Virus record (IMG/VR): IMGVR_UViG_3300023109_001370
Location: 1 to 31,427 of that record
Length of the DNA stretch: 31,427 bases
Direction: 5' to 3' (one strand)
From: a virus
Within the stretch, counting starts at the first letter, position 1. Each line of letters starts with the position of its first letter. The translations under genes and the position numbers were made by a program. The notes below the pieces were generated by a model that was not told the origin of the DNA, searched no databases, and saw only the letters and a list, made by a program, of their open reading frames with translations. Of the stretch, positions 1-30,799 are shown piece by piece.

Positions 1-1
1 C

Positions 2-7203: not shown

Positions 7204-7207
7204 TTAC

Positions 7208-11118: not shown

Positions 11119-11923
11119 TGGCTGCAGCTTTGTAAAATACTTATGGCCTACGTGGGCAGACTTTCTTTGTGCTGGATTTGAAAGCAGAATTAACATCGGC
11201 AACTGGGCTATGGGTTCAGATTATATCTTATACACAACTTATCCATATATTAAAGATGCAGGTCCACCGTATGATACAAAATTTATAATTAATTGGCCAT
11301 TCTATCATAAGTTTGATAATAAAAAAGATGGTGAATGGAATACATTAGGTAATGTACACAACGCCCAAAATAAATCTGAAGAAATACAAAATCATTATTA
11401 TTATTTTTACGACGATGACTATTGGTTTGAAAAGACTGTAAGAAATATGCAAATTGTAAACGATCTGTTAAAAGCAAAAAATTTGACTCATTGGTACACA
11501 AGTGCAGAAGATTATAGCTCAGATGATCGCGGAACAGAACTTAGCTCCATTTACGATAAATCTAATTTTTTAATAAAAGACTTTCACAAAGTTGGACTAG
11601 CTGATAAAGAAACTGCAAAGGTTTGGAAAAAAGGCAGATTTGATTTTAAAGATCAATACGATTGGCATCCTATGTGTACAACACAATTATCCATTGCTAA
11701 GAAAATATCAAAGCAAGCAGATATAGAAATGATAGATGTAGACTTTGAAAAAATCGCAAATGATATAGACAAAAGAATTTATCGGTGTGATGATATATCA
11801 AATTTTAAACAAATTACTTTAGATGAATATATAGATACGAAAGACAAACCAAAACAAAAAAAGAAACCTATATTTGGGAACATTTTTTATAAAGATCCAA
11901 ATAAATTTATATACGAGGATTAA
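11096..11923 (+). CDS. SGNH/GDSL-hydrolase-like protein
   Basis: 275 residues starting at GTG 11096; no in-frame ATG lies near the family-typical N-terminus, which begins with a strand leading directly into N-G-C-S-F (8-12), the equivalent of the GDSL nucleophile block. A block-III-like I-I-N-W-P-F-Y and a C-terminal D189-W-H191-P (D-x-H-P) fit the SGNH catalytic Asp/His. The family hydrolyses or transfers acyl groups, often acetyl groups on glycans. The C-terminal 30 residues are lysine-rich and may be a tail. It ends directly before the ATG of the dioxygenase gene. Family assignment is by motif only. Confidence 0.5.
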   Translation: MKYDLIINGCSFVKYLWPTWADFLCAGFESRINIGNWAMGSDYILYTTYPYIKDAGPPYDTKFIINWPFYHKFDNKKDGEWNTLGNVHNAQNKSEEIQNHYYYFYDDDYWFEKTVRNMQIVNDLLKAKNLTHWYTSAEDYSSDDRGTELSSIYDKSNFLIKDFHKVGLADKETAKVWKKGRFDFKDQYDWHPMCTTQLSIAKKISKQADIEMIDVDFEKIANDIDKRIYRCDDISNFKQITLDEYIDTKDKPKQKKKPIFGNIFYKDPNKFIYED

Positions 11924-12757
11924 ATGGATTATACTTTACATGAAAACGGTTGGACCGTTATAGTTGAGGATGATATACGAGATTTATCGTCTTCTGATAT
12001 ACTAAATGTTGCTAAGTTATTGTCAGAGCAAACTGTTGTTGTATTTAATAAGCAAATAGATATTAGTCCAGAAAATCAATTAGAAATTGCGCACATAATT
12101 GGAGACGTTATGAAACAGCGTAATAAGTCTCGGTCTAATCCTATTAATCTTATTGACGGCATAATCAGAGTTACAGGAAAGAAGAATGATAAAGGCGAGC
12201 CTGGGTTGTTTGGGCATACAAGCGCGTTAGATTGGCATGCAAATCAAGCAAGCAATAAAAACAGAGATCCTATTGTTTGGATGTATGGCGCTGAAGGTAT
12301 GGAAGGTAGCAGGACTAGCTTTATTAATATGGCTAATGTATACGAAAATTTACCTGATGATTTTAAAAAAGAAATTAAAAATATAAAATGCTTCTTTGGG
12401 TACGAGGCAGGTAAGTATAGTACAACACCATATTTTAGAGACCATGTTAATACAGAAAGTCTCTTTGATTTGGTAATGACAGTAGCATCAGGTAAAACTA
12501 GTTTATATTACCCGTTCTTACAAGTGTTTGGGATGGATCAAATTGATGAAGATAAATTTAAAAGTATTCACAACCGTTTAGTTGAATACATATTAGATGA
12601 GCAACATTCGTATCATCATAATTGGTTAGATGGGCAAATTCTTTTATCAGACCAATGGTTAAGCTTACACAAGAGATGGGAATTTGACAAGATGGAAGAA
12701 AGAGTATTACATAGGATAGCTATCAACTATAAAAATGTTTATGAAAGCTATCCTTAA
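11924..12757 (+). CDS. TauD/TfdA-like 2-oxoglutarate dioxygenase with HxN variant
   Basis: 277 residues; ATG 11924 is preceded by an ACGAGGAT ribosome site. N-terminal strands (TVVVFNKQ), W104-H105-A-N107, then G-S-R-T-S-F-I-N-M (127-136) with Y-E-N-L-P, and L-S-L-H249-K-R251 form the TauD/TfdA layout. H105 and H249 are the iron histidines and R251 the likely 2-oxoglutarate arginine. The usual carboxylate ligand of the HxD motif is Asn here. Typical activity is hydroxylation; the variant ligand might alter this or weaken iron binding. Last gene of the rightward cluster; its stop overlaps the stop of a convergent gene in TTAA. Confidence 0.78.
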   Translation: MDYTLHENGWTVIVEDDIRDLSSSDILNVAKLLSEQTVVVFNKQIDISPENQLEIAHIIGDVMKQRNKSRSNPINLIDGIIRVTGKKNDKGEPGLFGHTSALDWHANQASNKNRDPIVWMYGAEGMEGSRTSFINMANVYENLPDDFKKEIKNIKCFFGYEAGKYSTTPYFRDHVNTESLFDLVMTVASGKTSLYYPFLQVFGMDQIDEDKFKSIHNRLVEYILDEQHSYHHNWLDGQILLSDQWLSLHKRWEFDKMEERVLHRIAINYKNVYESYP

Positions 12758-13038
12758 ATTTCTGCGCCTGAAACGTTAGACATAGTAACGCCAGATTCTA
12801 AAACCTGACCAACTCCAAGTTCGCTCTGAAGAGCAGAAATAAATTCTGCTGATGAAGCCTCTGTATCGAAATCTATGTACTGATTTTCAATTAATGAGTT
12901 TTCAGGGTCAGGAGTAGTATCTCCGCCAATGATTTTACCGGCCGCTTCAAACTCCATATATTTTGTTTGTATAGTTGCATTAGTTATTGAAGTACTACTA
13001 GCAGGTTTAGTAACTGTGAACGAATATCTGTATGCCAA
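12754..13038 (-). CDS. Hypothetical protein, 94 aa
   Basis: 94 residues, starting at TTG (13038-13036 on the minus strand) with AGGAG about 6 bases upstream inside the preceding gene, which supports this unusual start. The sequence is rich in S, T and A and likely mostly beta (YRYSFTVTKP, then YIDFDTEASS). No family is recognised. Third gene of a leftward operon, separated from the methyltransferase gene by one base, and convergent with the TauD-like gene with a 4-base stop overlap and no visible terminator hairpin. The operon's late-type promoter suggests late expression. Confidence 0.65.
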   Translation of the reverse strand: MAYRYSFTVTKPASSTSITNATIQTKYMEFEAAGKIIGGDTTPDPENSLIENQYIDFDTEASSAEFISALQSELGVGQVLESGVTMSNVSGAEI

Positions 13039-13039
13039 T

Positions 13040-13726
13040 TTACTCTCCTAAGTTTACGTTTAAAAATGGGATAGGGTAATTACTTGTATATATTTTGGTT
13101 GCATTCATTCCATGTTTCTTTAATTTTTCAATTATAAACTCGGTTTTATACACTGCAATAAATTCATCACCGTTTCCTGTATTATACTCATTATTTATAA
13201 CATAAAAGTAATCTTCATTATTATTTCTAAAGTCAACACATTCGCCATATTTGTTTACTCTTTTATTATAAAAGTAATTTAACACCGTATTTGCTCTACC
13301 GTCGCCGTCGTTACAAAGATATGATATAATAACTTTCTTTGGGTTCAACGATCTAAACCAATAAAGTGTTTCTATAATGTCTTCAATTACCATATGGCTA
13401 AAAACGCTGTAAGACCATATGAAATCTTTATGAGTCATTACTGGATAGACGTAGGGATCGTTTGTTCCATCATGATTATACATTTCATTGTATTTGTTTA
13501 GATGAACAAACTGAGCTTTAGAAAATTCTTTTTTGCCTTCGGAAATAGCTTCTTCAACTACGTCAACACAAGTATAAGTTTCTTCGTTAATAGCACCGTT
13601 TGAAAAATGCAAAAGATTACCACTGCTGCCGCCGTAGTCTAATAAAGTATTGCTTTTTGTATATTCAGGTATCAACTCATTAAATAGTGGGTACCTATTG
13701 GTACTCTCATTTCTTGGGTGTGTCAT
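13040..13726 (-). CDS. Class I SAM-dependent methyltransferase
   Basis: 228 residues. Motif I is L-L-D-Y-G-G-S-S-G-N (28-37), followed by strand-2 acidic end T-C-V-D-V-V-E and the strand-4 region I-W-S-Y-S-V-F-S-H-M (with an acidic residue in the loop before it) and post-motif V-I-I-S-Y-L. This is the typical order for small-molecule or glycan methyltransferases. The substrate is unknown. It lies 3 bases after the nitroreductase stop, with no strong ribosome site of its own, which suggests coupling. Same leftward, probably late, operon. Confidence 0.72.
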   Translation of the reverse strand: MTHPRNESTNRYPLFNELIPEYTKSNTLLDYGGSSGNLLHFSNGAINEETYTCVDVVEEAISEGKKEFSKAQFVHLNKYNEMYNHDGTNDPYVYPVMTHKDFIWSYSVFSHMVIEDIIETLYWFRSLNPKKVIISYLCNDGDGRANTVLNYFYNKRVNKYGECVDFRNNNEDYFYVINNEYNTGNGDEFIAVYKTEFIIEKLKKHGMNATKIYTSNYPIPFLNVNLGE

Positions 13727-13729
13727 AAT

Positions 13730-14356
13730 TTAAATATAAGCTACCTCGATTGTTTCTTTTGTTTTTGTTGGAAACACAAAGTCTGGATCTGATTGATGTT
13801 CTCTTCTAGGTCTTGTATCATCTTTATATCCAATTCCCATCATCAGCGCAATATCATTTTCAGTATTTAAAACTTTTTTTACTGCTTCATTATTAAAACA
13901 GGCACAACAGCCAGTTCTATAACCTTTCATCGATGAAATCACATTTAAATATCCTGCAGCAATACCTACAGCCATATCAGCATCTCTTTTCCATGGATCG
14001 CCAAAGGTTTTATCTCTCCACTTATGAGAATCCGTTGGCTCAACATATTCCATTACAACTAACAAGTTTGCAAGAGTTTGTGAATTTGTCGACCATTTGA
14101 CATTATCTTTTGAATAAGGTTCATCAGGATTTGCTAAAACTCCAAAGCCTTCAGTGTTTTCATGAATTGCTTCAATAGTTTTTCTATCTGTAATAAAATT
14201 AGCTTTGTAAAAGGCAAAATTTTGTTTACTAGGACACTCTGTAATTGCAGTCTCTAATAACTTCATATCCTCTTCTGGGATAGTCTTACTTAAATCAAAG
14301 TTGCGCTGGCAATGTTGACTGCGTATCACAGCCTTTTGAATGTCAGAATTTTCCAT
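13730..14356 (-). CDS. Nitroreductase-family FMN oxidoreductase
   Basis: 208 residues. The N-terminal I-R-S-Q-H-C-Q-R-N-F-D corresponds to the R-R-S-x-R-x-F phosphate-binding helix of nitroreductases; P-S-K-Q-N-F matches the A-P-S-x-x-N-x-Q segment; the central helix D-A-D-M-A-V-G-I-A-A-G-Y-L and the G-C-C-A-C turn and M-G-I-G-Y motif complete the fold. Members use FMN and NAD(P)H to reduce or dehydrogenate diverse substrates. A very strong ribosome site AAGGAGG lies just before the ATG on the minus strand. First gene of the leftward operon from the divergent TATAAATA palindrome. Confidence 0.75.
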   Translation of the reverse strand: MENSDIQKAVIRSQHCQRNFDLSKTIPEEDMKLLETAITECPSKQNFAFYKANFITDRKTIEAIHENTEGFGVLANPDEPYSKDNVKWSTNSQTLANLLVVMEYVEPTDSHKWRDKTFGDPWKRDADMAVGIAAGYLNVISSMKGYRTGCCACFNNEAVKKVLNTENDIALMMGIGYKDDTRPRREHQSDPDFVFPTKTKETIEVAYI

Positions 14357-14380
14357 GTTGACCTCCTTAGATTTGTCATA

Positions 14381-14394
14381 TATAAATATTTATA
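14381..14394. promoter_or_regulatory. Divergent T4-type late promoter palindrome
   Basis: TATAAATATTTATA is a perfect 14-base palindrome containing the T4 late -10 octamer TATAAATA on the plus strand (14381-14388) and on the minus strand (14387-14394). It sits between the divergent nitroreductase and carbamoyltransferase genes, 25 to 31 bases from both starts. T4 late promoters are recognised by gp55 with the gp45 clamp as activator; a clamp gene is in this window. Assignment rests on motif identity and position. Confidence 0.75.
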
Positions 14395-14418
14395 CATTTG
14401 TTAAAAAGGGTATTTATT

Positions 14419-15744
14419 ATGAAAATTTTAGGAATAAGCGAAGGCTTTCACGATGCTGGCGCTACCCTAATAGATGGCCCAGAAATAATCAGCGCAACAC
14501 ATGCTGAAAGATTTTCCCGAAAAAAGAATGATCGTTGGCTCCATCCTTCACAGATGCTTGAGGCCTCTAAAGTTGCGTTTTATGAAAAGCCTTGGCTTAA
14601 ACAAACTCGCCAATGGTACGCAGGTCAAGGTACTAAAAAGAAAAGAACAGACTATGATGTTAGTTTTTATCATCATCAATCTCATATGGCTGCTGCATAT
14701 TATACAAGACCTTTTGAAGAAGAACCGGTTTGCGTAGTAATTGATGCTATAGGCGAATGGGATACTACTTCAATATGGTATAAAGGTAAAAAGAAATGGT
14801 CCATGAAGTACCCTAAATCTTTAGGTTTATTTTATAGCGCTATTACTCATTACGTTGGCTTAAAACCTATGGAAGATGAATATATCCTTATGGGCATGGC
14901 AGGATACGGTAAACCACAAGTAAATATGGATTATGTTTTAAAACAAAACCTGCATAAAGGATTAAGAGATATTGCTTTAGGATCTCATCAATATCATATT
15001 GCAGCAAGCGCTCAACACAAACTTGAGCAAGAAATAATAAAAATAATGAATAAGGCAAAACATTATTCTGACTACTTGTGCTATGGCGGCGGAGTAGCTT
15101 TAAACTGTGTTGCCAATAGTAAAATAAAACTAATGTTTAAAGAAGTTTGGATTATGCCAAACCCTGGCGATTGTGGATCTTCTTTAGGTGCAGCAGCATT
15201 AGCTTATGGTAAAAAATTATATTGGAAAGATCCATATCTTGGAACGGAGATTAAAAATGAAATACAAGTTAGTGATGTTGTTCAGCATCTTATTAATAAT
15301 TCCTATTGTGGTATCGCGAATGGCCGTGCTGAGTTTGGCCCTCGTGCCCTTGGTAATCGTAGCCTTCTCGCTGACCCTCGACGAGATGTTAAAGACACTA
15401 TTAACCAAATTAAACGTAGACAAAAATTTCGACCCTTTGCACCTGCCATCTTGGAAGAATTTGCTTCTGAGTATTTCGAAGGACCAATGAATGAGTATAT
15501 GCAATTCGTAGCAAAGGCAAAACACGATTATAAGTCAGTAACGCATATTGACGGAACTGCGAGAGTTCAAGTAGTTAAACCAAACTGTAAATCAATTATT
15601 CGTCCAATCCTTGAAGAATGGTATGACAAGACAGGTTGTCCAATGTTATTGAATACTAGTTTAAATATTAAAGGTCAGCCAATGGTTGATACCTGGGAAC
15701 ATGCAATTGCGTTTGAAAAGAAATATAATGTCAAAGTTTTCTAA
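14419..15744 (+). CDS. NodU/CmcH-family carbamoyltransferase
   Basis: 441 residues from ATG 14419; an in-frame TTG at 14398 is too close to the promoter. The N-terminal half has the ASKHA-like Kae1 fold start (ILGISEGFHDAGATLI), the H-H-x-S-H metal motif, D-A-I-G-E-W-D and M-G-M-A-G-Y-G-K-P. The C-terminal domain has A-N-G-R-A-E-F-G-P-R-A-L-G-N-R-S and L-N-T-S-L-N-I-K-G-x-P. Members make carbamoyl-AMP from carbamoyl phosphate and ATP and transfer the carbamoyl to a hydroxyl of a sugar or nucleoside-like acceptor. It is shorter than the usual 550 or so residues, mostly by trimming between the domains. Probably late-expressed. Confidence 0.88.
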   Translation: MKILGISEGFHDAGATLIDGPEIISATHAERFSRKKNDRWLHPSQMLEASKVAFYEKPWLKQTRQWYAGQGTKKKRTDYDVSFYHHQSHMAAAYYTRPFEEEPVCVVIDAIGEWDTTSIWYKGKKKWSMKYPKSLGLFYSAITHYVGLKPMEDEYILMGMAGYGKPQVNMDYVLKQNLHKGLRDIALGSHQYHIAASAQHKLEQEIIKIMNKAKHYSDYLCYGGGVALNCVANSKIKLMFKEVWIMPNPGDCGSSLGAAALAYGKKLYWKDPYLGTEIKNEIQVSDVVQHLINNSYCGIANGRAEFGPRALGNRSLLADPRRDVKDTINQIKRRQKFRPFAPAILEEFASEYFEGPMNEYMQFVAKAKHDYKSVTHIDGTARVQVVKPNCKSIIRPILEEWYDKTGCPMLLNTSLNIKGQPMVDTWEHAIAFEKKYNVKVF

Positions 15745-17272: not shown

Positions 17273-17298
17273 AATTTTATAACAAAAGGAATCACTCT

Positions 17299-17493
17299 AT
17301 GACACTATACACTAAAAAATCCGAACTTCTTTCTAACTACCTTGTACTTCCTGCTTGGGAAAACCCTGAGGATTTTAGCCTCATAGATCTTGACGCTAAT
17401 AAACCAATTTATGAAGGTACCTGTTTTGAGTGCTGGACTTATCTTGCTAAAATCCAACCAAAGTGTCGTTGGTTACAAAAATATGTGAAATAA
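17299..17493 (+). CDS. Hypothetical protein, 64 aa
   Basis: 64 residues with its own promoter at 17244 and ribosome site AAAAGGA about 8 bases before the ATG. The sequence contains F-S-L-I-D-L-D-A-N-K-P and a C-x-x-C pair (T-C-F-E-C-W), with a third cysteine near the end. No family is recognised. It is a single-gene transcription unit, since another promoter follows its stop directly. Confidence 0.72.
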   Translation: MTLYTKKSELLSNYLVLPAWENPEDFSLIDLDANKPIYEGTCFECWTYLAKIQPKCRWLQKYVK

Positions 17494-17496
17494 CTA

Positions 17497-17525
17497 TTGA
17501 CATTCCATATAGAATCAGTTATATT
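17497..17525 (+). promoter_or_regulatory. Sigma-70-type promoter (repeat family member 4)
   Basis: TTGACA (17497-17502), exact 17-base spacer, TATATT (17520-17525), followed by GATTATATC. It has the same architecture as the promoters at 15753 and 17244 and lies 29 bases before ATG 17555. Confidence 0.85.
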
Positions 17526-17554
17526 GATTATATCAAATGAAAAGGAACTATATC

Positions 17555-17836
17555 ATGGCTTATGTAACTTATAAAAACCGCTCTTCTTCTGACTACCGTT
17601 TTACTTGTAAATCTCTTGATGATCCTGAGATTGCAAATCTTAAAGAAATACTTGTTGAACGCAACAGTTTCATTAAACGTGCTCGCAAACAGACAGGTAT
17701 GATGAGCTTTTATGGTAAACAAAAAACACAAGGACTTCGTATCCGTCCTCGTGGTCCACGTCCGTCTCAGTGGGCTAAAGATACACCTTGGGAAAACGCT
17801 ACTCACTATGACGTTTACATCCGGGATTATTCATAA
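17555..17836 (+). CDS. Basic hypothetical protein, 93 aa
   Basis: 93 residues from ATG 17555, with AAAGGAA 7 bases upstream; the ATG at 17537 lacks a ribosome site. Strongly basic in the middle (F-I-K-R-A-R-K-Q-T-G, then G-L-R-I-R-P-R-G-P-R-P-S), which suggests nucleic-acid or acidic-surface binding. No family is recognised. It overlaps the following 52-residue gene by one base (TAATG). Confidence 0.72.
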   Translation: MAYVTYKNRSSSDYRFTCKSLDDPEIANLKEILVERNSFIKRARKQTGMMSFYGKQKTQGLRIRPRGPRPSQWAKDTPWENATHYDVYIRDYS

Positions 17837-17994
17837 TGGATTATAAAGATCTTGTGAAAAAGTTTGTTTCTGAAGGCGGCTCCATTACAAAGTGTGAGTC
17901 GTCAAAGAAACGTTTCAAAACATTCCGCGGCAAGGCAGGAGCCTATAACCGTGGTGCTAAGAAAATCAACTTACGTGATAAAGGTATTGCATAA
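17836..17994 (+). CDS. Small basic hypothetical protein, 52 aa
   Basis: 52 residues from ATG 17836 to TAA 17992-17994. Very basic: E-S-S-K-K-R-F-K-T-F-R-G-K-A-G and N-R-G-A-K-K-I-N-L-R. It starts and ends in one-base TAATG overlaps with its neighbours. A nucleic-acid-binding role is plausible from charge alone. No family is recognised. Confidence 0.7.
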   Translation: MDYKDLVKKFVSEGGSITKCESSKKRFKTFRGKAGAYNRGAKKINLRDKGIA

Positions 17995-18455
17995 TGTCTA
18001 TTGCAGATCTTGCTAAAGCTCAAACTTACATCGGTCGTTTTGAAGTAACGGAAACTGAAATTAATTGGTTTCCTGAACTTCGTTGGTCAGAATATCGTGA
18101 CTTCGGCGATATGGTTTACTTTATGTTTGTTGACGACAAACTTATGAAAATTGGTAAGGCTGCAAACAAAGGCGGTTGGAATGGTCGCGTTGGTATGTAT
18201 AAGAATGGAAATAATAAAGGCGGTGATGGTACCAATAAGCGTATTCTTCGTGTAATGAAAGAGATTGGTGAAGATACTATTCACATATACGCCATTCACA
18301 CTCCTCGTGAAAAAATATCCTTTACAAATCCGCTAAATAGTGATATAATTGAAACTGAAATTGAGACAGCCCTCTCGGTTGAAAAAAACTTGACTGCACA
18401 ATACTTAACTGAATCTAAAAGCAATCAACTTATGTTCTCAAACCAATTATCATAG
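17994..18455 (+). CDS. GIY-YIG/T5orf172-like protein
   Basis: 153 residues. The segment V-Y-F-M-F-V-D-D-K-L-M-K-I-G-K-A (41-56) followed by N-G-R-V-G-M-Y (63-69) resembles the T5orf172/MUG113 branch of the GIY-YIG nuclease superfamily (strand, turn, K-I-G, then an arginine helix). The first GIY tripeptide is degenerate (V-Y-F), and a candidate catalytic glutamate in the C-terminal helix (E-I-E-T-A) is possible but not certain. If active it would cut DNA; a structural or regulatory role is the alternative. One-base overlap with the preceding gene. Confidence 0.5.
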   Translation: MSIADLAKAQTYIGRFEVTETEINWFPELRWSEYRDFGDMVYFMFVDDKLMKIGKAANKGGWNGRVGMYKNGNNKGGDGTNKRILRVMKEIGEDTIHIYAIHTPREKISFTNPLNSDIIETEIETALSVEKNLTAQYLTESKSNQLMFSNQLS

Positions 18456-18465
18456 GAAGGTATAA

Positions 18466-19020
18466 ATGCTACTAATCATTGAAGGTATGGATCGCTGTGG
18501 CAAATCCACATTGGTGCAAAACCTACGTAAAAAATATTTTAAAAATCCAAACATAATGGCTCACCATTCATCGTCTCCTCCTGACTTTAAAGATCCTAAT
18601 GGTTGGGAAAAAGAACATTATGAGTCTTTGTTCATTGCGTCTAAACGACTCGTAAATCAAATGAATTATGATATTATCTTTGACCGTTTCCATCTCGGTG
18701 CAATCGTCTATGGCGAAAAGTATCGTGCTGCAGACGGTAAAGACATTTATGAATTGGACCGAAGGTTTCTCAGTGGATACAAAAACGCTGCATTAGTTTT
18801 GTTGACTGATACTACTGAGGGTATTATGTCTCGTGATGATGGCGAGAGTCTTGAACAAAGTAAAGAAGATTTCTTATATAGTCGTAACGCGTTTACTACT
18901 GCGTTCAACGAGTCAAGCTGTAAACATAAGCTGAGCATAAATATAACAAAGAACGGTGGAGTGGGTAACACATATGATACCGTTGCAAAATTTTTAGATG
19001 GAGTTCGTAATGAGAGTTGA
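18466..19020 (+). CDS. dTMP-kinase-like deoxynucleoside monophosphate kinase
   Basis: 184 residues with an AGGAAGG ribosome site before ATG 18466. The P-loop is G-M-D-R-C-G-K-S-T (7-15), the D-R-F-H motif at 73-76 matches the D-R-Y/F-x-x-S of thymidylate kinases, and a LID-like arginine region (S-R-D-D-G-E-S) follows. The family phosphorylates dNMP to dNDP with ATP. It overlaps the dCMP hydroxymethylase gene by 11 bases, which suggests that its substrate may be the modified nucleotide, 5-hydroxymethyl-dCMP, the job gp1 does in T4. It does not resemble T4 gp1 in sequence. Confidence 0.75.
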   Translation: MLLIIEGMDRCGKSTLVQNLRKKYFKNPNIMAHHSSSPPDFKDPNGWEKEHYESLFIASKRLVNQMNYDIIFDRFHLGAIVYGEKYRAADGKDIYELDRRFLSGYKNAALVLLTDTTEGIMSRDDGESLEQSKEDFLYSRNAFTTAFNESSCKHKLSINITKNGGVGNTYDTVAKFLDGVRNES

Positions 19021-19705
19021 TAGCGTACACGATATCCGTGAATTCTTTAAAGGTGAGTTGGCTGATGAAGCGTTTACAATTGACAAGACAGGTCAAAAGA
19101 CTATTGAATTGATTGGTGCAAACTTTATTGCAACAGAGCCAGCAATCTTTGGTACACCTAGTACAGAATATATTGATAAAGAAATAGCTTGGTATGAAAG
19201 CCAATCTACAAACATTAATGATATTCATGGTCCTGATAAAAATCCACCTGCAGCGTGGGAATACGCCGCTGACCCGCATGGCAATATTAATTCTAACTAT
19301 GGCCATCTTGTTTTTGCAAATAAGTATCACAATCAATACAAGAAAGCTTTTGACGAATTGCAAAAGAACCCTGATAGCCGTCGTGCTCAAATGGTTTACA
19401 ATCGTCCATCTATCTGGGTTGAGTTTGATGAAGGCGGTAAGTCTGACTTTATTTGTACTAATGCACAAACATTTTATATCCGTGATGGTCTTTTACAAAT
19501 GGTATCTCAAATGCGGTCAAACGATGTCGTGTTTGGTTATAAAAACGATTATGCGTGGGCTCAATACTTGATGGATAAGTTTGTAAAAGATTGGAATGAT
19601 TGCGCTGATACTTATGGCGTTAATGATCGTATTGAAAAGGGTATGCTTGTATGGCAGGTAATGAACTTGCATGTCTACGAACGCCACTTTGGTCTAGTTA
19701 AATGA
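19010..19705 (+). CDS. 42: dCMP hydroxymethylase (T4 gp42 family)
   Basis: 231 residues from ATG 19010, which has GGAG 6 bases upstream and gives an N-terminus like T4 gp42 (an ATG at 18998 is less likely). It is collinear with T4 gp42: D-K-T-G-Q-K-T-I-E-L-I-G-A, N-S-N-Y-G, N-P-D-S-R-R, S-D-F-I-C149-T-N, M-R-S-N-D-V-V-F-G and N-D180-Y-A-W. C149 is the nucleophile and D180 is the residue that selects cytosine where thymidylate synthases have Asn. It converts dCMP to 5-hydroxymethyl-dCMP using methylene-tetrahydrofolate. Its presence predicts hydroxymethylcytosine or a derivative in the virion DNA. Confidence 0.9.
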   Translation: MRVDSVHDIREFFKGELADEAFTIDKTGQKTIELIGANFIATEPAIFGTPSTEYIDKEIAWYESQSTNINDIHGPDKNPPAAWEYAADPHGNINSNYGHLVFANKYHNQYKKAFDELQKNPDSRRAQMVYNRPSIWVEFDEGGKSDFICTNAQTFYIRDGLLQMVSQMRSNDVVFGYKNDYAWAQYLMDKFVKDWNDCADTYGVNDRIEKGMLVWQVMNLHVYERHFGLVK

Positions 19706-21305: not shown

Positions 21306-21815
21306 ATGGAAGAACGTGAGCCTTATGAGGCATATATGCGGAGACGCAACCGCGAAGAAGACGCCCGCGAGTCAAAATGGGATAACCGTTTTATGGAATT
21401 GGCTAAAACAATTTCAACCTGGAGTAAAGATCCTTCGAGCAAAATTGGAGCCGTCGCGGTAAACGATGAAAGACGTATCCTTGCTACAGGATATAATGGT
21501 TTTCCTAAAGGTGTTGAAGATACTGAAGAACGTCTTAACAAACGAGAATTAAAATATCCGTTAATTGTCCATGCTGAATCAAATGCGTTAATGAATGCTC
21601 TTTATTCAGGTGTATCAGTTAAGGATGCTACTATATACGTTTATGGTTTGCCAGTTTGTCCTGAGTGTGCAAAGCTTATTATCCAATCAGGTGTTCGTCG
21701 AGTTGTAATTAAACCAAACACTCCAATGACTCCACAAACATGGGTTGAACTATGGGATACTCAATCAGCACCTATGTTTAAAGAAGCAGGAATATTGGTA
21801 ACTCATCTTGGCTAA
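21306..21815 (+). CDS. cd: dCMP deaminase
   Basis: 169 residues. The zinc-dependent deaminase signature is H89-A-E91 with P-V-C118-P-E-C121, and K-I-G-A-V-A-V-N / T-G-Y-N-G-F-P-K-G matches the substrate-binding region of T4-type dCMP deaminases. It converts dCMP to dUMP, feeding dTMP synthesis and lowering the pool of unmodified dCMP. Some T4-type enzymes accept 5-hydroxymethyl-dCMP and are controlled allosterically by dCTP. The first 25 residues are highly charged. It shares a short overlap with the methyltransferase gene that follows. Confidence 0.87.
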   Translation: MEEREPYEAYMRRRNREEDARESKWDNRFMELAKTISTWSKDPSSKIGAVAVNDERRILATGYNGFPKGVEDTEERLNKRELKYPLIVHAESNALMNALYSGVSVKDATIYVYGLPVCPECAKLIIQSGVRRVVIKPNTPMTPQTWVELWDTQSAPMFKEAGILVTHLG

Positions 21816-22470
21816 TAGTTTAACTGATATATACGTAGGAGTCAAAAAAGACGATCCTAATCGTAAAAAGAATGACTTTTATCCAACACCGCCACTTGCC
21901 ACATACATATTGTGTAAGTATGGTAATCCTCCACAAAATTTACTTGAACCTTGCGCAGGCCGCGGCCATATAAGCTCTGAACTGTTGCGAAACGGTCACA
22001 GTGTAAAAAGTATGGACCTTAACCAATATGATGATACACTAACCCACATAAATACATCATATGACGCAATGGAATTACCCAAGGATGAATGGGCTACAGG
22101 TGTAGTAACTAATCCTCCATATCACAAAGACTTACCACGTAAGTTGGCCGAAAAGTGGATTAATGAATATGATTATGTAGCCATGTTTCTTCGTTTAACA
22201 TTTCTTGAAGGTAAGAAACGAAAAAAACTATTTACATCTAACCCTCCTAGTGATATAATATTTTTATCAGATCGAGTTAGATTTGATTCTAATATTCGAG
22301 AGCCAATTGAAAAGAAAGACCAAATTGGTGGTATGATTGCGTATATGTGGATTATTTGGAATAAGCACGACATGAGTCTTGGCACAAATATGAAATGGGC
22401 AATGCTCGAAGACGAGTACGATGAATGGAGATTAAATTATGATAAATGTAGTAATACCGGCAGCAGGTGA
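21808..22470 (+). CDS. DNA N6-adenine-type methyltransferase
   Basis: 220 residues. The family motifs are F-Y-P-T-P-P (24-29), motif I L-L-E-P-C-A-G-R-G-H (45-54), strand 2 D70, and catalytic motif IV N-P-P-Y (102-105). This is the amino-methyltransferase layout of many phage adenine methyltransferases. The start is TTG 21808; there is no in-frame ATG before motif I, and the N-terminus has the family's usual length. It may protect phage DNA from restriction or mark it. It overlaps the nucleotidyltransferase-kinase gene by 32 bases. Confidence 0.72.
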   Translation: MANSLTDIYVGVKKDDPNRKKNDFYPTPPLATYILCKYGNPPQNLLEPCAGRGHISSELLRNGHSVKSMDLNQYDDTLTHINTSYDAMELPKDEWATGVVTNPPYHKDLPRKLAEKWINEYDYVAMFLRLTFLEGKKRKKLFTSNPPSDIIFLSDRVRFDSNIREPIEKKDQIGGMIAYMWIIWNKHDMSLGTNMKWAMLEDEYDEWRLNYDKCSNTGSR

Positions 22471-23914
22471 GGCAACAAGACTAAAGCCACTAACTGCAAA
22501 TTGCTCAAAAGCAATGATACGCGTCCACGGTAAACCTACTATTGAATATATTATTGAGTCAGTTCATAATAACGGTATTGAAGTTAAGCAAATCGTTATA
22601 GTTGATGGCAAACATGACGACATCCGTGAGTGGGTTGCGAAATCAAAATATAATAATATTAAATGTGTAAAACAAGGATCTCTTAACGGTCCTCGTGATG
22701 CTATTGATGTTGGTATTAAAAGTTTAGAAAATCCTACATATCCTTTAGTTGTTTGGCTAGGAGATGCAATTATTCTTGAAGAAGAACTACCTTTAGGAAC
22801 TGACTTTCTATTAACAAAAGAAGTTGAAGATCATTTTGCTTGGTGTATGTGGGACGGCAAAAAATACTTTAATAAACCAAAAGAAAATATTGACCAAGCA
22901 TCAGCTCTCGTAGGTCTATACAGTTTCAGCAGAGGATACGAAGCATATCACGCTTTTCATTATGCAAAAGGTTATGACATATCAGATGCTTTAGAGTTAT
23001 ATGAAGAACACGCTTCATTTGATAATATCAACACGGAAAAATGGTATGATATCGGCGACATATCTTCATACCACAAAACTTGCGCAACTTTATTAACGTT
23101 CAAGGCTCGTGAATTTAATTCGTTTGAATACAATTCAGATCTTAATATGATTACTAAATGGCCGCAGTCTGATAATAAATTTGCCGTTAAGACTATTATG
23201 AATGAAAAGAATTGGTACGAAAGCCTAAGTCCAGTGCAAAGTATGTTTGTTCCTAAAATCTTGCCAGATCCATATGCGCTAACAATGTCATACGAGTCTG
23301 GCATTTTGCTATCTGATTTGTTTATGCACGAGGACTTAAGTCCGTCAACTATTGAATACTTAATTGAAAAGGTATTCATTATAATGAACAAGTACTTCCA
23401 TAAAAAAGCAACACTTGAATTTGTCGCAGACTTTCAAGATAACGCTGAAAAAATGTGGATTGATAAAACCAAAGATCGTGGCGTAGATGATTACTATCTT
23501 GATGTTGCAGAGAAATGCCTCAATAGAGCTCGCCCAGTTTCAGGTATGCACGGTGATTTGCATTTCGGTAATATTCTTTATAATCCATATAACGATAGCA
23601 TTACGTTATTAGATCCACGCGGCTCTTATGGAGATCATATTGGTTGCGGCGGAGATTGGATGTATGACATGTGTAAATTGTCACACGATCTTTTCCATGG
23701 ATATAATGAACTAGTTACCGGGCATAAATACCCCCAGACGGTATGTGAAAGCTTTGGCCGATTGGTTCATAAATATTATCCTGATGCATATGATGATATT
23801 ATTGATGGCGGCGCTTTATTAATTGCAACCTGTTTGCCATTGCATTACGACTGTGAAGAACGCCAACAAAGAATGAGAGATTATGTTAATGAATACGCAA
23901 ACCTTAGTAGTTGA
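22439..23914 (+). CDS. Nucleotidyltransferase-kinase fusion (sugar/alcohol activation)
   Basis: 491 residues. The N-terminal domain (1 to about 240) begins M-I-N-V-V-I-P-A-A-G-E-A-T-R-L-K-P-L-T, a variant of the G-x-G-T-R-L-x-P-L-T pyrophosphorylase motif, with L-G-D as the metal-binding strand. The C-terminal domain has the aminoglycoside-phosphotransferase/choline-kinase catalytic loop H-G-D-L-H-F-G-N (371-378) and the metal aspartate L-D392-P-R-G. One chain therefore could phosphorylate a small substrate and couple it to a nucleotide. The next gene is a HAD phosphatase and then a glycosyltransferase, as in bacterial sugar-activation cassettes. The substrate is unknown. Confidence 0.78.
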   Translation: MINVVIPAAGEATRLKPLTANCSKAMIRVHGKPTIEYIIESVHNNGIEVKQIVIVDGKHDDIREWVAKSKYNNIKCVKQGSLNGPRDAIDVGIKSLENPTYPLVVWLGDAIILEEELPLGTDFLLTKEVEDHFAWCMWDGKKYFNKPKENIDQASALVGLYSFSRGYEAYHAFHYAKGYDISDALELYEEHASFDNINTEKWYDIGDISSYHKTCATLLTFKAREFNSFEYNSDLNMITKWPQSDNKFAVKTIMNEKNWYESLSPVQSMFVPKILPDPYALTMSYESGILLSDLFMHEDLSPSTIEYLIEKVFIIMNKYFHKKATLEFVADFQDNAEKMWIDKTKDRGVDDYYLDVAEKCLNRARPVSGMHGDLHFGNILYNPYNDSITLLDPRGSYGDHIGCGGDWMYDMCKLSHDLFHGYNELVTGHKYPQTVCESFGRLVHKYYPDAYDDIIDGGALLIATCLPLHYDCEERQQRMRDYVNEYANLSS

Positions 23915-24250: not shown

Positions 24251-25495
24251 ATGAAAAACATTGGTTTCGCAAAGATCGGTAAATCTATTAAATTTAAAAC
24301 TAACAAGTACTCTCCAATTGGCGGAGACAACGAAGCGTCTTGCACTATACGTGCAATGGCAAACAACAATCCAGACAAAACGTTTTACCTAATTGGTCGT
24401 TCTGACTTTGGCGCATTGTCTGATACTGAACGCCTGGATTTGTTTCCATATGATAATGTAATTGACTGTTGGCACGGCGTTCCTTTGGCAATGTCAGAAA
24501 CATATTACAATCACATTATTAATTATTTTAAAGACATTGAGCTTGACTTTTCTGTTATGATGATTGGGCAAATTAGTAATGTTACAATCCCAGAGAAAAT
24601 TTGGAAAGTACGTGAAAGCCAACAAGATGGAAAACCAGCCGCGACTCTTGATATGACTAAGTGGTATACAACTCCTATTACTAAATGGCTAAACGAAAGT
24701 AAGCCACGATGGATAGAAATTGTTAACGATCCACGATATGTTATCAAACAACCGCGTGATGTATTTCATATGCCTTTCCGTTCTCTTGGACAATACGATT
24801 ATGATTATGAAACATTTTCTATTACTGATTATGAAAACCAAGAAAGATTAGTACGGGTTGTTCATTCTGAATACGCAGGAATGGAAACTGCGTTCTGTGG
24901 TGATTATGAATACACTGAAGAAATCAATACAGATCGTAAGACAGACTTTATGGTTGTACTTAATGAAGGTAAACCATCTCGTTATGGATTGCTTAAAAGT
25001 TGGGTACTTGATAAATTTGATAATGTTGACATATACGGTAAATGGCTTGACAAACGAACTGAAACTGATGAAAGGTTTAAAGGATCATTACATATTAATG
25101 AAATCCAAGATAAACTACAGGATGTTAAGTTTACATTTATTATTCCGATTAAAGAAGGTTGGACAACGTCAAAGTATATTGAAATGATCCATGCTGGCGT
25201 TATTCCGTTTCTTCACCCAACTTATGACGACCAAGGTCATTTGCCTATTCCTGATTTCTTACGGCCAAAAACGCCTGAAGAATTTTATACGAATATGCAA
25301 CGACTAATTGACAACCAAACAGAATATGAAACGGTTTTAAAAGGACTGCGTAAAGCAATTCTTAAACCTGAATACTATGACGGTAGCTTTATTAATGATA
25401 ACATTATGAAAGCCGCAGACCCAAATTATACAAGACCTGATACAGCGCAGTTTACAAAGACAAAAGCTGCGACACTTGAAGACTTTTTTGCATAG
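24251..25495 (+). CDS. GT-B-like glycosyltransferase with clamp-binding-like tail
   Basis: 414 residues from ATG 24251, favoured over ATG 24239 by GGAAGTG spacing. The N-terminus (IGFAKIGKSIKFKTNKYSP, then F-Y-L-I-G-R) and C-terminal half (V-D-I-Y-G-K-W, then S-K-Y-I-E-M-I-H-A-G-V-I-P-F-L) have the layout of GT-B enzymes and recall T4 beta-glucosyltransferase (F-F-G-N, then W-E-T-M-A-S-D-A-V-M-L). With dCMP hydroxymethylase nearby, a role in glycosylating hydroxymethylcytosine in DNA is the leading idea. The last residues A-A-T-L-E-D-F-F-A follow a flexible linker and resemble a clamp-binding peptide. The family call is by pattern only. Confidence 0.6.
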   Translation: MKNIGFAKIGKSIKFKTNKYSPIGGDNEASCTIRAMANNNPDKTFYLIGRSDFGALSDTERLDLFPYDNVIDCWHGVPLAMSETYYNHIINYFKDIELDFSVMMIGQISNVTIPEKIWKVRESQQDGKPAATLDMTKWYTTPITKWLNESKPRWIEIVNDPRYVIKQPRDVFHMPFRSLGQYDYDYETFSITDYENQERLVRVVHSEYAGMETAFCGDYEYTEEINTDRKTDFMVVLNEGKPSRYGLLKSWVLDKFDNVDIYGKWLDKRTETDERFKGSLHINEIQDKLQDVKFTFIIPIKEGWTTSKYIEMIHAGVIPFLHPTYDDQGHLPIPDFLRPKTPEEFYTNMQRLIDNQTEYETVLKGLRKAILKPEYYDGSFINDNIMKAADPNYTRPDTAQFTKTKAATLEDFFA

Positions 25496-25505
25496 AGGAT
25501 ATAAA

Positions 25506-26717
25506 ATGAGCGAAATTACATGGGCCCCAATTATTCCACTAATCGGTGGACAAATGCTAGGAGCAGAAAAAGCTTTTGGAAAACCACCTGAAGCTATCTA
25601 TTCATACGCGGACTTTGAAGGAAATGATAGTCATTATGTTAACTATCAGCAAAACGTCAAAGGACGTGATGTACAATATAAAATGATTCCTGAAAGTTCA
25701 AGTCGACATATCAGTGTTATTTCAGGTACACCACCTTGTGCAGCATTGTCACAGCTTAACACTGGTAAGACTGAAGCAGCCAAAGGCGCGAAATGCGAAA
25801 AGAACGAATGGATGTACGAAGTTTTTAAAGAAGGCATTAACCGATTTTCAGCCAAAGCTATTGTTGTTGAAAATGCTCCGGCTTTGTTTACTAAAAAAGG
25901 TAAAGAAGTAGCTGATAATTTGTTTGACATTTGCTCAAAAGCAGGGTATAGTTTAACTCTATATAAAACATCTACAAAGTATCATGGTATCCCACAAGCT
26001 AGAGATCGTTGTTTTGCTATTGGTTGGAACTCAGAAGTTGCTCCTATTATGAATTGGTATAAACGACCTCGTAAAAAGTTTCACGAATACCTTAGTGACT
26101 TAACAGACGATGTTCAACAAATGGATATTTTGTGTAACAAAAAACTTGATGAAGAACCTTATTATCAATACATCAAGTCAATAACAAACGAAGATCCTCG
26201 TAAGGTGATTATGGAAAGCGGACAGATTACAGCATTCAACTATATTAATAAAAGTGGCAAATTACCTGCCTGCAATAAATGGATGCATGACACTGGCAAC
26301 GAACGTGGTATCAAAGTATCAGACCATGCTGTTAAAAAGTTTGCAATGGGCAAAGGTATTTGGGACAGTTCAACTCACGTCTTTGGAGAATGTATGAACG
26401 CAGTTATCGGCCGTAACCTTGCAGACACAATTCATCCAAAGTTTGACCGTTCTTTAACTATCCGTGAAGCTTTATATCTTATGGGTTTCCCGCATGACTT
26501 TGAGCTTGTTGGTGGATTACCTAAAATGAACCACATTGCACAAAACGTTCCTGTGCCAACATCAAGAGATATTCATACTGAAATTGGCAAGTTTATTCGT
26601 GGCGAGTTAACAATGTCAGATACTAATTACCATCGTCAGGACAACCACAACGAACGCATGTGGTCTGATCCAGGCGGTAAAAACAACCAAGCAACACTTG
26701 AGGAGTTCATGGCTTGA
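25506..26717 (+). CDS. DNA cytosine-C5 methyltransferase with clamp-binding-like tail
   Basis: 403 residues from ATG 25506 with GAGGA upstream. Motif I is P-L-I-G-G-Q-M-L-G-A-E-K-A (11-23), motif IV G-T-P-P-C78 with the catalytic cysteine, motif VI V-E-N-A-P, motif VIII Q-A-R-D-R (164-168) and a C-terminal L-M-G-F-P motif like motif IX/X. It transfers a methyl group to C5 of cytosine. The last ten residues (N-Q-A-T-L-E-E-F-M-A) follow an N/D-rich linker and match Q-x-x-L-x-x-F-M, like the tail of the preceding glycosyltransferase. The stop overlaps the DexA TTG start. Confidence 0.85.
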   Translation: MSEITWAPIIPLIGGQMLGAEKAFGKPPEAIYSYADFEGNDSHYVNYQQNVKGRDVQYKMIPESSSRHISVISGTPPCAALSQLNTGKTEAAKGAKCEKNEWMYEVFKEGINRFSAKAIVVENAPALFTKKGKEVADNLFDICSKAGYSLTLYKTSTKYHGIPQARDRCFAIGWNSEVAPIMNWYKRPRKKFHEYLSDLTDDVQQMDILCNKKLDEEPYYQYIKSITNEDPRKVIMESGQITAFNYINKSGKLPACNKWMHDTGNERGIKVSDHAVKKFAMGKGIWDSSTHVFGECMNAVIGRNLADTIHPKFDRSLTIREALYLMGFPHDFELVGGLPKMNHIAQNVPVPTSRDIHTEIGKFIRGELTMSDTNYHRQDNHNERMWSDPGGKNNQATLEEFMA

Positions 26718-27349
26718 AACACGACTTTATTATAGATTTTGAAACATTCGGTAAAGATGCTCAGAAATGTGCAGTGATTGATTGTTCTGTAATGGTATTC
26801 AGTTGGGACAAGATGGTTTCAGCTGATCCATATACCCTCGCAGATATTTCAAAAACGAAACGATTTAAACTATCCGTGGTGGATCAAGTTAAAAACTACG
26901 GATGGGAAATTGACAAAAGCACAGTTGCATGGTGGGAATCCCTAGGACCTGAAGTTCGTAGGAATATCAAACCACTTCCAACTGATTTGACTGTGGCGGA
27001 TTTCGCTAAACAATTTCATGACTTTTTAATTGACTCGCCAAAGATTAGCAAATGGTGGTCTAGGTCAAATACGTTTGATCCGATTATTCTTGGCCGGTTA
27101 TTTCAATCACAAGATAAACTATTACATATGGAAGAGTACTTAAAGTATTGGGCAGTCCGCGATACACGTACTTATATTGATGCAAAGTTTGATTTCAAGC
27201 AAAAGAACGGGTTTATCCCATTTGCTGACGAACAGCGTTGGGAACAGATGTTTAAAGCTCACGACAGCTCGTGGGATATTTTAGCTGATGTATTACGTAT
27301 GCAAGCAATTCGTAGGGCTGAGGAAGATTTAGAACAGGTGACAACATGA
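26714..27349 (+). CDS. dexA: DexA-type 3'-5' exonuclease
   Basis: 211 residues. The start is TTG 26714, supported by GAGGAG about 7 bases upstream and by an N-terminus that aligns with T4 DexA (F-I-I-D-F-E-T). The DEDD nuclease motifs D8-F-E10-T, S-N-T-F-D-P-I-I and H-D-S-S-W-D are present, as is the DexA-specific K-S-T-V-A-W-W-E (T-I-E-W-W in T4). It degrades DNA from the 3' end and may help recycle host DNA. It overlaps the methyltransferase stop (TTGA) and the next gene by 4 bases. Confidence 0.87.
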   Translation: MKHDFIIDFETFGKDAQKCAVIDCSVMVFSWDKMVSADPYTLADISKTKRFKLSVVDQVKNYGWEIDKSTVAWWESLGPEVRRNIKPLPTDLTVADFAKQFHDFLIDSPKISKWWSRSNTFDPIILGRLFQSQDKLLHMEEYLKYWAVRDTRTYIDAKFDFKQKNGFIPFADEQRWEQMFKAHDSSWDILADVLRMQAIRRAEEDLEQVTT

Positions 27350-28261: not shown

Positions 28262-28927
28262 ATGAAATTTTCTGAACGCACTCTTACTATTCTTAAGAGT
28301 TTCTCTACTATCAACAAATCAATCCTAATGAAGCAAGGTAATACACTTCGTACTATTACGCCTGAAAAAACATTGATTGCATCTGCGACAATCCCAGATC
28401 AATTTCCGTCTGAAGCATGTATTTACGATTTATCAAGATTTTTATCAATTTTGTCACTCCACACTGCACCAGACGTAGAGTTTCATGATAAATACTTTGT
28501 AATCACAGAAGGTAAACAACGTACCCGTTACGCGTTTGCCGACGTCTCCATGATACATGCAGCGCCTGAAAAAACCATAGAATTGCCTTCGGCTGATGTG
28601 GTTGTTGATGTATCTTGGAATGATTTGCAATCTGTTCAAAAAGCGGCAGGTGTTCTTCAGTTTAATGAAGTTGCATTTGTTGGTCAGGATGGAAAGTGTT
28701 ACTTAAAGGCCATCGACAGTTCGTCTGCGGCAGCGGATGACTACGGTGTAGAAATTGGCGATACTGCCGATGAGTTTAAAATTATTATCAAAACTGATAA
28801 TTTGAAACTCTTACCTCAAGATTACAGAGTTACGCTGTCAAGTAAAGGTATCTCTGAATTTAAAGGTGAAGACGTCACGTATTTCGTGGCTATTGATACA
28901 AAGTCGACTTATAAGAAAGGATCCTAA
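28262..28927 (+). CDS. 45: Sliding clamp gp45
   Basis: 221 residues, the usual length (T4, 228), collinear with T4 gp45: an M-K-F-S-x-x-T-L-x-I-L-K-S-F-S-T-I-N-K-S-I-L-M-K start (T4 K-N-F-A-T-I-N-S), I-Y-D-L-S-R-F-L-S-I-L-S-L, and a late F-K-G-E-D-V-T-Y-F-V-A-I-D (T4 F-E-G-E-H-A-N-Y-V-V-A-L-E). It forms the trimeric ring that holds polymerase on DNA and, in T4, also activates late transcription. Its ribosome site is AGGAG at 28250-28254. In this window it may also recruit DNA-modifying enzymes. Confidence 0.92.
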   Translation: MKFSERTLTILKSFSTINKSILMKQGNTLRTITPEKTLIASATIPDQFPSEACIYDLSRFLSILSLHTAPDVEFHDKYFVITEGKQRTRYAFADVSMIHAAPEKTIELPSADVVVDVSWNDLQSVQKAAGVLQFNEVAFVGQDGKCYLKAIDSSSAAADDYGVEIGDTADEFKIIIKTDNLKLLPQDYRVTLSSKGISEFKGEDVTYFVAIDTKSTYKKGS

Positions 28928-29251: not shown

Positions 29252-30205
29252 ATGTCTATTGATGCTAAACCAAATGAAGTGCTCTGGGTTGAGCGCTATC
29301 GGCCGCAACTGATTGCGGATACTATTCTCCCTGAAAAAACTAAATCAATGTTCACGAAGTTTGTTACTGATAACAGTGTACCAAACTTACTGCTGACTGG
29401 TGGTCCAGGTGTTGGCAAGACTACTATCGCAAAAGCAATGCTTGAAGAACTAGGTTGTGATTATATCGTAAAGAACGGCTCGTTAAACGTTAACATTGAT
29501 ACTCTTCGCTATGACATATCAACATATGCGTCGGCTGTATCATTGCAAGGTGGTCGTAAGTATGTAATCTTTGACGAAGCTGATTACCTTAATGCCGCAA
29601 ATGTTCAACCAGCGTTGCGTAATTTTATTGAAGAATATTCTTCCAACTGTGGTTTTATCTTTACTTGTAATTTTAAGAATAGAATTATTCAACCGTTGCG
29701 GTCTCGGTTATCTGAAGTTGATTTTACTATTGAAACAACAGATCGCCCTAAACTTGCGTTGCAATTTATGAAACGTGTAGAGACAATTCTTGACACAGAA
29801 GCAGTTGATTACGATAAGAATGTTGTTGCCAAAGTTATTCAAAAACATTTTCCTGATTTCCGTAGAGTACTTACTGAGCTACAATCGTATGCAGCTTCAG
29901 GTAAGATTGACGAAGGTATCTTTGTTAATCTAAAGCAAGAGTCTATGGATGAATTGTTTCGTTTGTTAAAAGCAAAAGACTTTACCAATATGCGTAAATG
30001 GGTTGCAAAGAATAGCGATCAAGATATGAATGAAATGTTCCGTCGTATTTACGATATGGCAACTGATAAAGTTCTAATGAAATCGTTACCTGGATTTGTT
30101 GTAACTCTTGCTGACTATATGTACAAAGCAAACTTTGTCGCAGATCTCGAAGTTAACATGGTTGCATTCCTAACCGAAGTAATGATTGAAGCTGAATACA
30201 AATGA
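29252..30205 (+). CDS. 44: Clamp-loader large subunit gp44
   Basis: 317 residues, T4 length. AAA+ ATPase: W-V-E-R-Y-R-P (12-18), Walker A G-G-P-G-V-G-K-T-T (50-58), Walker B V-I-F-D-E-A-D (105-111), sensor 1 F-T-C-N (137-140) and the S-R-L arginine finger near 151-153. With gp62 it opens and loads gp45 at primer ends using ATP. Its ribosome site GGAG lies 5 bases before ATG 29252. The stop overlaps the zinc-ribbon gene as ATGA. Confidence 0.92.
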   Translation: MSIDAKPNEVLWVERYRPQLIADTILPEKTKSMFTKFVTDNSVPNLLLTGGPGVGKTTIAKAMLEELGCDYIVKNGSLNVNIDTLRYDISTYASAVSLQGGRKYVIFDEADYLNAANVQPALRNFIEEYSSNCGFIFTCNFKNRIIQPLRSRLSEVDFTIETTDRPKLALQFMKRVETILDTEAVDYDKNVVAKVIQKHFPDFRRVLTELQSYAASGKIDEGIFVNLKQESMDELFRLLKAKDFTNMRKWVAKNSDQDMNEMFRRIYDMATDKVLMKSLPGFVVTLADYMYKANFVADLEVNMVAFLTEVMIEAEYK

Positions 30206-30408
30206 GTGAATGGATCAAAAAACTAATGGGATTGCATCAATGCTTTGAATGCAAACAGTATATTGATAAGAAAGACATATACGATGTAAACCTAGATACG
30301 CTCGACGGACCATGGAATTTTAAATTGTGTGGAGTTTGTGCTAAAGATTTTGATGATATGATGAAAGAATTGGAGGAAGTAATTGGCGAAAGAGATAACA
30401 CCATTTGA
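30202..30408 (+). CDS. Zinc-ribbon-like small protein
   Basis: 68 residues. Two CxxC pairs (C14-x2-C17 and C43-x2-C46) spaced for a zinc ribbon, with a C-terminal acidic helix (D-D-M-M-K-E-L-E-E-V). It is placed between gp44 and gp62, where T4 has nothing equivalent. It may bind nucleic acid or a clamp-loader component; function not known. ATGA start overlap; it runs 26 bases into the gp62 gene. Confidence 0.72.
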   Translation: MSEWIKKLMGLHQCFECKQYIDKKDIYDVNLDTLDGPWNFKLCGVCAKDFDDMMKELEEVIGERDNTI

Positions 30409-30799
30409 TTTTATGAATGCCGTGTCCTTTACAAAAGAGGATCTTATCGGTAAACATGATAACCCAGATCAAGCCGAAAGACTATATGTTCCTTATATGG
30501 TAAACCGTGGCTTTGCAAACTTTGAAGATACTATCCTGCATGCAAACGAATTAAATCAGCGCGCTCATTTATTTGATCGTGCCCAATTTGATTATTACCG
30601 TGGTGCATTACGTAAACGCAAACGGTTTTCAAAGTGGCCAAAAGCTGATAAAAACATAGACTTAGACGCCATTCAGGAAGTGTATCAATGCAATAGAACC
30701 ATAGCAAAGCTTTACCTTAAGGCGTTATCAGCTGAAGATTTAAAGACTATCCATACGAAGCTAGAAACAGGCGGCGTTGGTACTAAATCAAAGAAATGA
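30383..30799 (+). CDS. 62: Clamp-loader small subunit gp62
   Basis: 138 residues, shorter than T4 gp62 (187). The start is TTG 30383, supported by GGAGG at 30372-30376 six bases upstream; the next ATG (30413) has no ribosome site. The conserved core Q-F-D-Y-Y-R-G-A-L-R-K-R-K-R-F-S-K-W-P-K matches T4 gp62 [20 protein letters not shown]. It is the non-ATPase partner of gp44 in the clamp loader. Gene order agrees. Confidence 0.85.
   Translation: MAKEITPFDFMNAVSFTKEDLIGKHDNPDQAERLYVPYMVNRGFANFEDTILHANELNQRAHLFDRAQFDYYRGALRKRKRFSKWPKADKNIDLDAIQEVYQCNRTIAKLYLKALSAEDLKTIHTKLETGGVGTKSKK

Follow-up and report, generated by a model that had tools for sequence, protein, structure and literature searches.

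Two adjacent genes of an uncultured T4-like phage (a virus of bacteria), encoding a glycosyltransferase (GT) and, unrelated to it, a DNA cytosine-C5 methyltransferase (MTase), end in short, similar peptides that we interpret as T4-type sliding-clamp-binding motifs tethering both enzymes to the phage clamp gp45. We put the probability of this overall reading at roughly 80%. The peptides themselves, their conservation, their match to the gp43 tails of sister contigs, their spread over DNA-modifying enzymes and the co-encoded gp45 were all observed; physical binding of the tails to gp45 is inferred with good confidence, and neither it nor the overall reading is backed by binding data. The genes lie on a 31-kb fragment (31,427 nucleotides, here referred to as the window), whose relevant features are the following.

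18998-19705, plus strand: thymidylate-synthase fold, probably dCMP hydroxymethylase (alignment; phrog_160)
21306-21815, plus strand: dCMP deaminase (phrog_174, PF00383)
22439-23914, plus strand: sugar nucleotidyltransferase, likely maker of the GT donor (PF00483, 2e-14; adjoins GT in relatives)
24251-25495, plus strand: GT, predicted GT-B glycosyltransferase, T4 beta-glucosyltransferase nearest in fold
25418-25471, plus strand: variable linker of GT, about residues 390-407 (alignment, column entropy)
25472-25492, plus strand: GT tail TLEDFFA, putative gp45-binding motif, kept in relatives to 48% identity and matching sister gp43 tails
25506-26717, plus strand: MTase, DNA cytosine-C5 methyltransferase fold (PF00145; phrog_116)
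26694-26714, plus strand: MTase tail TLEEFMA, putative gp45-binding motif, kept to 56% identity, L398 and F401 invariant
26714-27349, plus strand: DexA-like 3'-5' exonuclease, without tail (phrog_255, PF16473)
28262-28927, plus strand: gp45 sliding clamp, proposed partner (phrog_223, E 4.7e-72; RB69 clamp 1b77/1b8h at 7.7e-27)
29252-30205, plus strand: gp44 clamp loader (phrog_168, E 1.5e-104)
30383-30799, plus strand: gp62 clamp loader small subunit (phrog_225, E 3.9e-34)

The GT ends in KTKAATLEDFFA (AATLEDFFA) and the MTase in KNNQATLEEFMA (QATLEEFMA), each followed directly by the stop codon, and the first-pass annotation, which had pointed out the shared ending, had both letters and positions right. 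It had also placed a gp45 gene downstream, which we confirmed at 2-3 kb from the GT and MTase genes; gp45, gp44, and gp62 all lie downstream of the MTase at less than 5 kb. Among the reliable genes of the window, only these two end in this way. IMG/VR searches yielded 23 GT and 80 MTase relatives, and every complete one keeps the tail that the annotation had described for the window alone (GT to 48% identity, MTase to 56%), the exception being a partial, very divergent GT-like ORF (L050; 33% identity) with a different end. Tail variants such as GLESFF, TGLESWF, NLEEFF, SLEEFM, and SVEHFF retain the spacing, and the leucine and first phenylalanine are invariant or nearly so across relatives whose linkers differ in sequence and length: column entropy is 1.39 for the GT linker and 1.51 for that of the MTase, compared to 0 to 0.26 and 0, respectively, for the L and F columns. 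The Leu and Phe codons of the tail vary synonymously among relatives, indicating that the peptide and not the DNA is under selection, and the GT and MTase tails are written in different codons and thus are not recent copies of each other. In seven sister contigs, 0 to 0.04 tail ends were expected per contig from internal positions and 1 to 3 were observed. The further suggestion that each tail follows a probably disordered linker was only partly borne out, AlphaFold2 pLDDT dropping to 59 to 67 at the MTase end but staying at 72 to 83 at the GT end; in both models, the tail is predicted to form a short helix.

Known gp45 ligands provide the closest comparison. The C termini of T4 gp43 and gp55 bind gp45 and are interchangeable, on divergent linkers, and the matching gp43 end binds gp45 in both T4 and RB69 (PMC2988020); gp33 and DNA ligase use the same gp45 site (PMC7892883). 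The T4 proteins end in SLDFLFG (gp43) and SLDFLYEAND (gp55), both proven ligands. Like these motifs, the window tails occupy the extreme C terminus, follow a divergent linker of variable length, and combine hydrophobic with acidic residues (TLEDFF and TLEEFM versus SLDFLF and SLDFLY), the pattern being [ST]LxxF[FY] or SLDFL[FY]. A cognate gp45 is present as well, encoded in the window itself. The carriers differ, since the T4 motifs (gp43, gp55, gp33, and DNA ligase; PMC2988020, PMC7892883) sit on a polymerase, a ligase, and transcription factors, whereas window-type tails sit on DNA-modifying enzymes. The annotation had proposed looking for the tail on the phage's own polymerase. The window contig has no gp43; every gp43 in the sister contigs, which supply the cognate polymerase, ends in [TS][LI][ED]xFF (SLESFFM, TLESFFS, TIEDFFS, TLDDFFS, TLENFFV, and similar). 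In one of them, a 218-kb contig with 303 ORFs (G001), the tail occurs on gp43, GT, and MTase only, and the remaining sister contigs concur, bar a few short or unlikely ORFs. The likeness of the sister gp43 tails, together with the resemblance to T4 gp43 and gp55, supports the clamp-binding reading. In the window clade, gp55 lacks TLEDFF.

Two precedents invoked in the first-pass annotation carry less weight. The tails had been compared to PCNA-type PIP boxes (QxxLxxFF), a comparison that fails: the glutamine is found only in the window MTase and a few close relatives, the position being A, T, S, I, P, and others elsewhere. Because this residue is not conserved, we rejected the PIP box, and T4-type sliding-clamp-binding motif is the right name. 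The animal DNMT1-PCNA pair (PMC9690074) is similar in that a C5-methyltransferase is tethered to a sliding clamp via a short peptide, and differs in clamp family, in its PIP-type motif, and in serving maintenance methylation as opposed to phage DNA masking. The second precedent, T4 alpha-glucosyltransferase (alpha-GT), likewise glycosylates phage DNA and does bind gp45 (Sommer 2004, cited in PMC13216743, where the finding was repeated), but it ends in CFKEQFDIITK without the motif and is therefore a weak one; a divergent AGT homologue (L288) has the motif.

To see how widely the tail occurs, we scanned IMG/VR DNA for T-L-[DE]-[DE]-F-F-x-stop and for its serine variant. The first pattern gave at least 246 matches, with 172 family-B polymerase ends among the matches listed, and the second at least 120, with 94 polymerases and 6 TETs among those listed. 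A permuted peptide of equal degeneracy matched 68 times in the whole collection, and the five matches on ORFs of at least 150 aa included no polymerase and no modifier. Non-polymerase carriers among the matches listed were mostly DNA modifiers by Pfam: Tet_JBP (PF12851, 1.9e-15), AGT, the T4 alpha-GT homologue (PF11440, 5e-35), Mom (PF25680, 2.5e-21), D12 methylase (9e-15), N6_N4_Mtase (7e-21), a group-1 glycosyltransferase (GT4; Glycos_transf_1), and a CmoY-like, asparagine-synthase-like protein (Asn_synthase). A second, SPPY-type amino-MTase family was found at eight loci among the matches listed (PF01555 at only 3e-4, under the curated cut-off), so that amino-MTases of three kinds carry the tail. 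CmoY is the ligase that joins glycine to the carboxymethylcytosine of DNA (PMC12783734). This recurrence on other modification enzymes further supports the clamp-binding reading.

Further carriers among the matches listed were GIY-YIG and HNH nucleases, a baseplate protein, and proteins of a family of unknown function, phrog_13881. In L219 (minus strand, about 2500 and 1700), a separate copy of the polymerase tail is found on a GIY-YIG homing-endonuclease-like ORF that lies next to gene 43. Proteins of PF12322 (T4_baseplate) or similar end in L/IxxFF in L275, phage C48C1 (115098-115805), Cr30 (133694-134395), and S-B43 (167416-168132), possibly by coincidence or through another use of the motif; the pattern alone is thus not exclusive to clamp ligands. 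The phrog_13881 proteins, with ATLEDFF tails in L187, L191, L192, L193, and L212, have homologues in Aeromonas T4-like phages, and the 10 tail carriers may be DNA-acting enzymes. The tail could in this way point to unrecognized enzymes that act on DNA among phage genes of unknown function.

Tails also occur together within single genomes. Phage C48C1 (156 kb) has them on gp43 (AATLEDFFG), Dam (STLDAFFG), and TET (SLEEFFV), and G026 on gp43 (SSLEEFFG), TET (GTLEEFFG), and GT4 (DLESLFG). A tailed gp43 is accompanied by a tailed Dam in G034, TET in G036, amino-MTase in G028 and G033, Mom in G032, and CmoY-like protein in G038. Caulobacter phage Cr30 pairs gp43 (ADLSSLFD) with a TAGT-like protein (SDLSKLF; Pfam match under cut-off), and Stenotrophomonas phage DLP6 pairs TET (ATLGDFFV) with a GT-like protein (DLSSFFN). 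With a TET alignment as the query, 77 of 79 complete TETs had the tail, and their tailed neighbours comprised 25 ADDT, 20 GNAT, 17 TAGT, 4 GT4, and 8 gp55 proteins, family names resting on one or two Pfam-tested members per cluster and, for gp55, on sequence resemblance. The gp55 homologues in these contigs end in DSDLSGFFEE and similar; since gp55 is a known T4 gp45 ligand, they serve as a positive control. T4-type clamps were found within the examined flanks of 24 TET loci. Across the TET loci, 0.07 tail ends were expected and 126 observed, although the homologues are not independent. Covariation between client tails and cognate polymerase tails was suggestive with Cr30 included (100 of 20,000 permutations) and weak without it (1,479 of 20,000), and was for that reason not relied on. 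The TET/TAGT/ADDT clusters resemble the window as DNA hypermodification operons bearing the same tail; the window, in contrast, has a dCMP-hydroxymethylase-like gene, and 18 records of its clade gave no TET or TAGT match, in a search whose TET positive control was itself silent.

If the tails bind as proposed, GT and MTase would dock by a flexible linker on the same face of gp45 as the polymerase tail. The gp45 ring would remain on newly made DNA and hold the tethered enzymes at high local concentration on the phage duplex, so that modification would likely take place during or just after replication. It is an old question how phages get all of their new DNA modified before it is cut by host restriction or CRISPR; in T4, the link between clamp and modification concerned one enzyme only and was of disputed weight. 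Our data suggest that these phages tie DNA masking to the ring behind the replication fork. With a tail of seven residues that is conserved, can be removed, and sits on many unrelated modifiers, replication coupling can be put to a direct test. The T4-type clamp motif is already known; its recurrent use on DNA modifiers appears to be new in the searchable literature, where we found no description of such tails on phage modifiers, though priority elsewhere is not excluded.

That the purpose is replication coupling is a weaker inference than binding itself, and one we favor only by some measure over general tethering to the duplex, in which the tails would bind gp45 much as gp55 does with RNA polymerase and independently of a moving fork. 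This remains a credible, if lesser, possibility: gp55 homologues in the TET contigs have comparable ends, gp55 acts together with gp45 apart from the polymerase (PMC2988020), and a 2026 study judged that gp45 binding is not the main cause of alpha-GT dominance in T4 (PMC13216743). In that system, the ratio of linkages was not governed by the association of alpha-GT with gp45 (PMC13216743), so coupling may tune modification and not enable it. In T4, nevertheless, gp44/62 loads gp45 at the primer ends that replication produces, which means that tethering and coupling overlap; the present data do not separate the two.

Short hydrophobic C-terminal peptides can serve as degrons or as sites for adaptors, and the tail might target a partner other than gp45 that is shared with gp43, such as an adaptor for a protease or a further component of the replisome. 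The LxxFF ends of baseplate proteins, which are not known gp45 binders, are in keeping with this idea, but we consider it unlikely, given the known binding of the T4 and RB69 gp43 end to gp45 (PMC2988020) and the presence of a gp45 gene close by. We give still less credence to a functionless recombination cassette spread from the 3' end of gene 43. Carriers do often adjoin that gene (Dam in C48C1 and G034, the amino-MTase in G028, and the homing endonuclease in L219), but purifying selection on the L and F residues is strong despite synonymous codon change, the tail is kept over 50% protein divergence, and the GT and MTase codons differ. Chance or composition, conceivable because the motif is short, is contradicted by the permuted control, the sister-contig expectation, and the TET-locus count, and can be set aside.

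The tail is not universal among homologues. Both enzymes of phage XG4 (44% and 50% identity) lack it, and its gp43 retains one; XG4 gene 43 (PP712099, 54303-58039) is apparently split into two reading frames. The tail is also absent from the TETs of Cr30 and S-CBWM1, from the proven CmoX and CmoY of S-B43 (the C-terminal part of whose gp43 was looked for and not located), and from T4 alpha-GT, beta-GT, and Dam. These homologues indicate that the tail is dispensable in some T4-like phages and is an add-on, not a part of catalysis. Aeromonas phage 65, PTm1, and three Vibrio phages likewise have TAGT-like proteins without such a tail. Among small, non-T4-type phages, the two TETs tested (HTVC112P and P12024L) have no tail. 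Nonlabens phage P12024L (L726, NC_018272; 35 kb), whose annotation has neither polymerase nor clamp, encodes at 17279-18674 a TAGT ending in QLEIF and an adjacent methyltransferase ending in QQTLF, the only QxxLF-type ends among its 58 proteins (0.011 expected); another TAGT, at 80% identity, has QTQLF at its end. We take QLEIF and QQTLF, two cases so far, to resemble bacterial beta-clamp motifs. A broader conjecture, on which we hold the balance to be even, is that the sliding clamp directs hypermodification of phage DNA as a rule: T4-like phages would place polymerase-type gp45-binding tails on their base-acting enzymes (C5, N6/N4, and D12 methyltransferases, TET, several glycosyltransferase families, ADDT, GNAT, Mom, and CmoY-like ligases), and clamp-less phages may use motifs for the host beta-clamp.

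The enzymatic assignments differ in firmness. The MTase meets its family profile (PF00145, 86.1 bits against a cut-off of 22), and motifs PPC, ENA, QxRxR, and NxV are visible. The GT had no Pfam or PHROG match at 1e-3 and fails the T4 beta-glucosyltransferase (BGT) family profile, the similarity being one of fold only. On the evidence of its AlphaFold2 model (pLDDT 84), it is a GT-B fold with T4 BGT nearest: the top six Foldseek PDB matches are all T4 BGT (best E value, 2.6e-9; TM, 0.52 to 0.67 over the six). T4 BGT differs in having no tail and about 11% identity to the window GT, and it did not copurify with gp45 (PMC13216743). Alignment places an aspartate at the ThyA N177 position of the 18998-19705 product, as in T4 gp42, which makes hydroxymethylcytosine the likely, inferred acceptor of the GT; the sugar nucleotidyltransferase at 22439-23914 likely supplies its donor, again by inference.

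The window thus combines a dCMP-hydroxymethylase-like gene with a C5-methyltransferase whose motifs are intact, and the latter would have no evident role if hydroxymethylcytosine replaces cytosine in this phage. Some relatives have an extra gene of about 380 aa (MANIILFTTRPITSKYTKSL), without a tail, between GT and MTase (L033:8887-9999, L041, L051, L097, and XG4 4208-5344); it is maybe a second glycosyltransferase, with a weak GT47 hint at best. Upstream of the replication genes, positions 1-15744 of the window hold an unusual auxiliary cluster with a TauD-type dioxygenase (PF02668) and a carbamoyltransferase (PF02543), along with Radical-SAM-like proteins and two desaturase-like proteins, the latter groups assigned from sequence only.
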